Shown in pieces: positions 685-3,304 of a DNA stretch of 13,055 nucleotides. A program made the translations under genes and the position numbers. The notes under the pieces are model-generated. The model had not been told where the DNA came from. It saw only the letters and a program-made list of their open reading frames with translations, and did not search any database. The DNA is from a bacterium (GTDB lineage: Bacteria > UBA9089 > JASEIO01), in NCBI GenBank assembly GCA_030017475.1, contig JASEIO010000043.1, positions 1 through 13,055 of the forward strand, read 5' to 3'. Position 1 is the stretch's first letter. Every line of letters begins with the position of its first letter.

Positions 685-1677
685 TCATTTCTTAATCCAA
701 CTCATCATCCCACGAAGCTTTTCCCCTACCTCTTCAATTAGATGTGAGGCATCTTTCTTTCTAAGGGCATTATATACTGGTCTATTAGCCATATTTTCTA
801 AGATCCATTCCCTGGCAAATTCTCCAGATTTTATCTCTTGTAAGATTTTTTTCATTTCCATCCTTGTGTCTTGAGTTATGATTCTTCTTCCCCTTGTCAT
901 ATCCCCATATTCAGCAGTATCGGATATAGCCTCTCTCATTCCAGTAATACCTTTTGTATGGATAAGATCCACAATCAATTTTAGCTCATGACAGCATTCG
1001 AAGTAGGCGATTTCTGGCTGATAACCAGCTTCTATTAATGTATCAAAACTTGCTCTAATCAATTCTGTTACCCCGCCGCACAGGACCACTTGTTCTCCAA
1101 ACAGATCTGTTTCTGTTTCCTCCGAGAATGTAGTCTCTATAACTCCAGCTCGTAATGCACCAATTCCTTTAGCATATGCCAATCCAATCTGATTAGCCAC
1201 CTTTGAATGGTCTTGATAAACAGCAAGTAAGGCGGGTACCCCACCACCTTGTAAAAACATCTCCCTGACTAAATATCCAGGACCTTTTGGGGCAACCATA
1301 ATTACATCGATATCCGATGGTGGCGTAATTTGACCAAAGTGGATATTGAACCCATGGGAAAAGCCAAGTATATTTCCAGAATTGATATTTGGAGCAATAT
1401 ATCTTTCGTAAACCTGTGGTTGGATCTGGTCAGGGACAAGCATCTGGATGAAATCTCCGATTTTTGCTGCCGCATCGGTAGCCATTACCTCCATTCCATC
1501 CTGCTTGGCCTTATTCCAATTAGGACTTCCCTCTATTTCAGCTACTACTACATCCAATCCAGAATCTCGTAAATTTCTTGCCTGGGCACAACCTTGATTC
1601 CCATAACCAATTATAGCTATCTTTTTCCCTTTTAAAAATCCTAAATCCCCATCCTTTTCATAATAGATATTCGCCAT
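685..1677 (-). CDS. ilvC: Ketol-acid reductoisomerase (class I, probably NADH-preferring or dual)
   Basis: This enzyme isomerises and reduces 2-acetolactate or 2-aceto-2-hydroxybutyrate to the dihydroxy acids, the second shared step of valine, leucine and isoleucine synthesis. At 330 residues it is a normal short (class I) form. The Rossmann motif GYGNQG is at residues 24-29, the catalytic His at 108 ([10 protein letters not shown]), and the Mg-binding acids are Asp191, Glu195, Glu227 and Glu231, with Ser252 in the active site. The loop after the second beta strand reads AEIEGSPNW (46-54). The Arg and Ser/Lys that usually contact the NADPH 2'-phosphate are replaced by Ile48 and Glu49, which suggests NADH use. 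The ATG at 1677 has a strong AGGAGG 5 nt upstream. It is separated from ilvN by a lipoprotein gene and a GH57 remnant. Confidence 0.97.
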
Positions 1678-1682
1678 GTTAA

Positions 1683-1688
1683 CCTCCT
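1683..1688 (-). promoter_or_regulatory. Strong ribosome binding site of ilvC
   Basis: AGGAGG lies 5 nt before the ilvC ATG. It overlaps the stop codon (1687-1689) of the GH57 remnant, so the break point between remnant sequence and native ilvC leader is at or just before this site. Confidence 0.8.
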
Positions 1689-1749
1689 ATAAAAAGTTAC
1701 CAACTGGTTGGTGATTATGGACACAAGATACGAGATTAACCTTATCCAT
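1687..1749 (-). pseudogene. Remnant of a glycoside hydrolase family 57 gene (first 20 codons only)
   Basis: Directly after the TAG stop of the OmpA-type lipoprotein gene, with no intervening base, an ATG opens a frame encoding MDKVNLVSCVHNHQPVGNFL and then stops. Family knowledge: GH57 alpha-amylases and 4-alpha-glucanotransferases begin with a short strand leading into H-N-H-Q-P-x-G-N-F, conserved region 1 near the N-terminus. The position (initiator Met about 10 residues before the motif) and the nine-residue motif both match. The rest of the roughly 400-700 residue enzyme is missing and ilvC follows within 10 nt. It is therefore read as a truncated 5' end left by recombination or deletion. 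A functional 20-residue peptide cannot be excluded but is unlikely. Confidence 0.75.
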
Positions 1750-2778
1750 CTATCTCTCTATCTTTCTTTCAAACCTTTCAGGTAAAAGGATAATCTCTAC
1801 TCTTCTATTTCTTCTCCTTCCTTCCTTTGTATCATTTGTATCCACAGGCCTATATTCTCCATATCCTGCTGCAGAAAGACGCCTTGGAGAGATATCATAC
1901 TTCCATTGTAAATATCGTAAAACCTGTGTTGCACGAGAGGTAGACAATTCCCAATTAGATGGAAAAAACTTAGTATGAATAGGGACATTATCAGTATGTC
2001 CCTCGATTAAGACCTCTCTATTTGGATAGTTTTTAATAATCTCCGCTACCTTTTCTAAAGCTGGATGAGCCTCTTTCTTTATCTCAGATGACCCAGAATC
2101 AAACAAGATGCGATCGATAAAGGAGATTATCAACCTTCCCTTCTCTTCTTTTATTTCAATCTCTGCCTTTTTTACATAATCTTGGAACTCTTCTTTTATC
2201 CTCCTATTTTCCTCCATTAGTTTCATAAAGGCTTCATCTTTTTCAATCTTTAAAATCTCTAAGTCCCTATTTGTCTTTTCTAAGTCTTCTCTTAACCTAT
2301 TATTTTCCTCTTTCAAATTGGCAATCTCTTCTAATTTCCCTTTAATAATCTCATCCTTAGCCTTTATCCTTTTTTTTAGCTCCTCTCCTTCTCTCTTAAG
2401 ATCAACAATCTCCTTGTTCAAATTGCCTTTCTCAGCTAACCAATCTTTCTTCTCCGAAGACCACATCTTGTTTATATCTTCAATCTCTTTTGATTTATCC
2501 TGAATCGTTTTTTCTTTATCACTAACCTCCTGAGTGAGGGCATCCCTTTCTTTCTCCAACTTAGTAATATTTTCTTTCAACAGATTCTCTTTTTTCTCAC
2601 CTTTTTCCCTCTCTTCTTTAAATACCTTTTCCAATTCTTCTATTTCCTTTGCTTTCTGTTGAATTAACTCATCTTTATTAGATACCTCTCTCAGATATCG
2701 TCCCTTTGTCACCAAACAACCAGCACTAAGAAATAGCAATATTAAAATATTTGCGATAAATCCTAACCACTTTTTCAT
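1750..2778 (-). CDS. Outer-membrane lipoprotein with long coiled coil and C-terminal OmpA/Pal peptidoglycan-binding domain
   Basis: From the chosen ATG the protein has 342 residues. It begins with a lipoprotein signal peptide: two Lys, a hydrophobic stretch and the lipobox LSAGC with the lipidated Cys at 21. Residues about 30-205 are a highly charged Glu/Lys heptad region, almost certainly a long coiled coil. Residues about 215-333 are an OmpA-like domain with the peptidoglycan-contact pattern GHTDNVP, then FPSNWELSTSRA and a terminal NRRVEI. It should anchor in the outer membrane and reach the peptidoglycan. An upstream in-frame GTG exists, but AAGGAG (2785-2790) is correctly spaced only for the ATG at 2778. 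It sits between ilvN and ilvC, an unusual place. The domain resembles MotB, but the lipobox and the lack of a MotB-type membrane/plug region argue against a stator protein. Confidence 0.88.
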   Translation of the reverse strand: MKKWLGFIANILILLFLSAGCLVTKGRYLREVSNKDELIQQKAKEIEELEKVFKEEREKGEKKENLLKENITKLEKERDALTQEVSDKEKTIQDKSKEIEDINKMWSSEKKDWLAEKGNLNKEIVDLKREGEELKKRIKAKDEIIKGKLEEIANLKEENNRLREDLEKTNRDLEILKIEKDEAFMKLMEENRRIKEEFQDYVKKAEIEIKEEKGRLIISFIDRILFDSGSSEIKKEAHPALEKVAEIIKNYPNREVLIEGHTDNVPIHTKFFPSNWELSTSRATQVLRYLQWKYDISPRRLSAAGYGEYRPVDTNDTKEGRRRNRRVEIILLPERFERKIER

Positions 2779-2784
2779 AACCCA

Positions 2785-2790
2785 CTCCTT
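2785..2790 (-). promoter_or_regulatory. Ribosome binding site fixing the lipoprotein start
   Basis: AAGGAG lies 6 nt before ATG 2778. It lies inside the first codons of the longer GTG-initiated frame (from 2799), which makes the longer form unlikely. Confidence 0.65.
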
Positions 2791-2802
2791 TCGTATCACC
2801 TA

Positions 2803-3282
2803 TTATCTGCCTCCCCTTGAGATAGCAATCCTTCCAGTTCTTACAAGTTCTTTTATTCCAAATGGCTTCATTAATTCGATTAAGGCAGAAATCTTATCCT
2901 CATCACCTGTCATTTCAATAGTTACAATTTGGTGGTCAACATCTATAATCTTTGCACGGAATATGTTTACGATCTCCATAATCTCTGCCCTTTTTTTGTT
3001 CATTGCCGAAACCTTTATTAAAACCAATTCCCTTTCTACATGTTCTTCCTTGGTCAAGTTAGAAACCTTAATTACATCAATAAGTTTCCGGAGCTGTTTG
3101 ATTATCTGTTCTAAAACCCTTTCATCTCCTCTTACCACAATAGTCATCCTTGATACAGTAGGATCATCGGTTTCACCCACACATAATGAGTCGATATTAA
3201 ACCCCCTTCCAGAGAATAATCCCGAAACTCTGGCTAAAACCCCAAATCGGTTTTCCACCAAAACAGAGATAGTATGTTTCAT
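2803..3282 (-). CDS. ilvN: Acetolactate synthase, small regulatory subunit
   Basis: This is the regulatory partner of IlvB; it raises activity and confers valine feedback inhibition. From the ATG at 3282 it has 159 residues, the usual length for the long form (also named ilvH). Residues 1 to about 76 are an ACT domain beginning [27 protein letters not shown] in two conserved blocks, followed by the C-terminal small-subunit domain with [14 protein letters not shown] longer frame with six extra residues begins at a GTG at 3300, but AAGGA upstream of 3282 and the usual M-K-H-T-I-S start favour the shorter form. It follows ilvB after 62 bp and ends in tandem stops (TAA TAG) 24 bp before the lipoprotein gene. 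Confidence 0.96.
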
Positions 3283-3304
3283 AAAATCTATTCCTTTCAC
3301 TCGT

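Follow-up and report, generated by a model that had tools for sequence, protein, structure and literature searches.

Bacterial gene remnants and truncated pseudogenes are short recognisable pieces in intergenic space from which most of the gene has been lost, and deletion-scar remnants are well described in reduced genomes (for example PMC2374718, PMC2916853). In glycoside hydrolase family 57 (GH57), the catalytic Glu and Asp sit in later conserved regions of the protein (PMC6037648). The window, which is the whole stretch of DNA that we analysed (13,055 nucleotides), corresponds to contig 49 in a draft genome of 1.64 Mb, which is 98.5% complete and divided into 111 contigs. It contains a 20-codon frame on the minus strand (1687-1749) whose first 19 codons correspond to a GH57 start of the 4-α-glucanotransferase type, as judged by translation, matrix score and phmmer. 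The frame is like other gene remnants in kind and unlike them in being unusually short and clean, with a start codon at one end and the ribosome-binding site of the next gene at the other. We consider it very probable that a GH57 4-α-glucanotransferase/α-amylase gene was lost here down to its first 19 codons, which remain as a deletion or recombination scar in front of ilvC.

Translation of the minus strand at 1687-1749 gave exactly MDKVNLVSCVHNHQPVGNFL followed by a stop codon. The TAG of the preceding lipoprotein gene (1752-1750) is followed by the ATG of the frame (1749-1747) with no base between them. At the other end, the frame's own TAG (1689-1687) overlaps AGGAGG (1688-1683), which precedes the ilvC ATG (1677) by 5 bases. 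The junction and ilvC leader (1678-1695, minus strand) consist of a T run, the TAG overlapping AGGAGG, and TTAAC, and then comes the ilvC ATG. An earlier sequence-only reading of this DNA had placed the frame between the lipoprotein stop and the ilvC ribosome-binding site, and its coordinates, strand and junctions agree with the translation and the letters. After Gly-Asn-Phe the frame reads Leu-stop, whereas 45 intact GH57 starts have D, E, G, S, A or P at this position; since the window lacks a family residue here, the similarity to GH57 ends right after Gly-Asn-Phe. The ilvC leaders of relatives are mostly A/T-rich (T-rich) with (A)AGGAGG before the ATG, and the window's TTTTTATAGGAGGTTAAC is of the same character, so the stretch after Gly-Asn-Phe is most simply ilvC's own leader. 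The join to ilvC that had been proposed can thus be placed within the T run. Because the joint lies in this run, the joining may have been aided by a small number of T bases common to both sides. An exact search for the junction in viral contigs found nothing.

We built a 17-column matrix of the GH57 N-terminus from 16 GH57 starts, with the window left out, and used it to scan six-frame translations of all loci collected (1,808,489 translated stretches). The window frame scored 41.9 bits, compared with 38.4-55.2 bits for 17 intact GH57 starts. This is 25 bits above any unrelated stretch, the best of which reached 16.4 bits; some of the next-ranked stretches were other GH57 subtypes. The signature HxHQPxGNF is present about ten residues from the start, after an N-terminal β strand, and all motif columns agree with the 45 intact starts. 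A phmmer search with the 20 residues against 177,635 distinct PDB sequences returned a single match up to E = 10. This was 1k1w, a Thermococcus 4-α-glucanotransferase, whose residues 1-19 align with residues 1-19 of the peptide at E = 0.028, a value limited by the length of the query. The 20-mer alone had no Pfam match in hmmscan, as expected because the query is so short. Judged by its residues, the peptide represents the start of a GH57 protein of the 4-α-glucanotransferase type, with a similarity far above chance, and the signature recognised by the sequence-only reading is borne out. Comparison with 1k1w and with proteins of the same phylum that carry PF03065, PF09094 and PF09095 showed 19 gapless residues alike, with HNHQPxGNF in common and the start codon equally far from the motif. 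Unlike these proteins, the window frame has nothing past residue 19, including the regions of the catalytic Glu and Asp. The nine-residue motif HNHQPVGNF was present in 48 of 386 genomes. All 30 cases inspected have an open frame to the end of the DNA retrieved (at least 311 codons), and the window is the only truncated case seen beside them. One residue of the frame is Ser where all 45 intact starts, which were selected by motif, have Leu, Phe or Ile; this may hint at decay or relaxed constraint, for which one site is weak evidence.

The rest of the GH57 gene, approximately 700 codons, was not found on the other contigs of the draft assembly. With a full relative of 721 residues (PF03065, PF09094 and PF09095) as the query, the only match in the genome was a weak one on contig 36, where a different GH57-like gene lies; the 762-residue protein encoded by this gene is the genome's only PF03065 match. 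We rejected this gene as the decapitated remainder; PF03065 matches only from position 38, PF09094 and PF09095 are lacking, the protein is of another type and the gene has its own start beside its neighbour. Thus, a GH57 gene lacking its first 20 codons, of the kind the earlier reading had envisaged, was not found in the assembly. Because the frame ends after 20 codons and the remainder was not found, it is a fragment and not a GH57 enzyme. The regions CSR-3 and CSR-4, which hold the catalytic Glu and Asp, are absent, as are PF09094 and PF09095, and since the catalytic regions lie later in the protein, the fragment is incapable of GH57 chemistry. The locus therefore has what defines a gene remnant or truncated pseudogene, namely a recognisable part of a family, no remainder and no catalytic capacity, although in a draft genome the absence of the remainder is less than certain. 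The glycogen synthase (PF08323) and phosphorylase (PF00343) families were not found in the assembly, with positive controls matched in 12 of 14 genomes, and this fits a loss of glucan metabolism.

The lipoprotein gene and the fragment have ilvD, ilvB and ilvH upstream of them and ilvC downstream. The upstream neighbour is ilvH (2803-3300, minus strand), predicted from gene order and identity to the ilvH of many relatives to encode the acetolactate synthase small subunit. Between it and ilvC is a gene for a lipoprotein with an OmpA domain (1750-2799, minus strand; PF00691, 1.4e-22), for which ATG 2778 is probably the real start codon. The fragment is followed directly by ilvC (685-1677, minus strand), whose IlvC relatives are 59-72% identical. 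Among same-phylum contigs that span this junction, ilvH is directly followed by ilvC in five genomes (G001, G004, G005, G011 and G015). In G003 about 0.2 kb of spacer separates the two, and in G009 they are about 0.8 kb apart, an unrelated small frame lying in between. In the window, the 1 kb lipoprotein gene and the GH57 start separate ilvH from ilvC. Since the two are neighbours in most of the same-phylum contigs, the lipoprotein gene and the fragment interrupt the operon. The small gene in G009 (contig 268, L177:1699-2010) is predicted to encode a protein of 103 aa with no Pfam match, and because it differs from the genes in the window, the ilvH-ilvC spacer took insertions more than once. 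Contig 15 carries a paralogue of the lipoprotein (48% identity), and relatives occur in G001 and G006 (about 50%); nadD follows two of them. When genome contigs were scanned with IlvC, no close relative turned up, the best identity being 70%. A genome of the same family was not found.

In six same-phylum genomes (G001, G004, G013, G016, G017 and G018) a GH57 gene lies directly behind coaD. No relative of the lipoprotein was found beside a GH57 gene in 76 GH57-bearing stretches (some overlapping, most with a 1.5 kb flank), so the assumed ancestral order is seen nowhere. The sequence-only reading had proposed that a lipoprotein-GH57 pair was once present here or was imported, and that its left part was joined to ilvC by recombination. 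The extra DNA between ilvH and ilvC, absent from most same-phylum contigs that span this junction, supports part of this proposal; an intact pair did not turn up. The gene for pantetheine-phosphate adenylyltransferase, coaD, was not found in the assembly with PF01467, TIGR01510 or a relative's protein. There are three PF01467 matches in this genome; the cytidylyltransferase on contig 21 was rejected as coaD and is nadD, and the other two, to go by frame length only, resemble HldE- and RibF-type proteins. The missing coaD reflects an assembly gap or a replacement. Since nearly all genomes would be expected to have coaD, some of this genome may be missing from the assembly, perhaps including an intact GH57 copy in an unassembled coaD-GH57 locus.

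In the deletion that we favour, an ancestral GH57 gene would have lain directly behind the lipoprotein gene and ahead of ilvC. Deletion or recombination would then have removed the gene from about codon 20 onwards, up to the ilvC leader, so that Gly-Asn-Phe ran straight into the leader's T run, where the next in-frame codons would by chance read Leu-stop. We infer that a single deletion event was involved and that a lipoprotein-GH57 pair preceded it; drawn from this one place, the pair is plausible, the tight TAG-ATG joint being operon-like. The remnant, having neither catalytic residue, is most likely an inert scar without enzyme function. If translated, it would yield a 20-residue by-product and at most pass ribosomes to ilvC, since its stop overlaps the ilvC ribosome-binding site. 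Counting against a scar are the clean ATG, the open frame and the retention of the complete motif, features that might also reflect constraint. As a scar, the locus is a real but ordinary trace that gene loss has left in a small bacterial genome. It shows neatly that a gene can still be identified from a very small remainder, and it illustrates gene loss in a small uncultivated genome seemingly without glycogen metabolism. A larger significance would follow only if the short frame controls ilvC.

Illegitimate recombination might instead have inserted a GH57 start, on a piece of DNA roughly 60 bases long, between the lipoprotein gene and ilvC, with a full GH57 gene never present here. The lack of a lipoprotein-GH57 pair elsewhere and the exact beginning of the piece at a start codon can be taken in favour of this. 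We think it unlikely, as the first base of a random piece would seldom coincide with an ATG directly behind a stop codon and the tight TAG-ATG joint resembles that of an operon. Distinctly unlikely is an assembly misjoin, in which a contig ending in lipoprotein and GH57 sequence was wrongly linked to ilvC and the organism has GH57 intact. The division of the draft into 111 contigs, the missing coaD (the usual GH57 neighbour in relatives) and again the lack of a known pair point in this direction. Against it, the missing codons are on no other contig, the two sides of the junction would have no more than a few T bases in common and, since ilvD-ilvB-ilvH and ilvC are expected operon partners, the join unites genes that belong together.

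Once the lipoprotein gene had interrupted the operon, the GH57 start could also have been co-opted as a short upstream frame whose translation links that of the lipoprotein to that of ilvC or tunes ilvC. The clean ATG, the open frame, the stop overlapping AGGAGG and the presence in the frame of GGUUAAUCUC, which can pair with the ilvC ribosome-binding site, would suit such a role. A pairing run of the same length arose in 11% of shuffles, so the pairing is probably due to chance. The leader does not fold better than shuffles (z -1.08) and contains no terminator and no Rfam family; there is no run of Ile, Leu or Val codons, with 6 of the 20 residues being Val or Leu. We regard co-option for a leader-peptide or coupling role as very unlikely. 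On the same grounds we rejected an ilv leader peptide with attenuation, which the frame resembles in being short and just ahead of an ilv gene and from which it also differs in having a sequence explained by GH57. That a random short frame came to resemble GH57 by chance, as a length of only 20 codons might suggest, is refuted by the matrix score and by the PDB match in register from residue 1.

Within 1678-1740, GGTTAATCTC in the fragment could form base pairs with GAGGTTAAC at the ribosome-binding site of ilvC, a run length equalled in 11% of shuffles and so probably fortuitous. Downstream of ilvC (1-564), the window encodes a 187-aa protein that has no Pfam match at E 0.001 and may resemble PD-(D/E)XK-like DUF3782 proteins.
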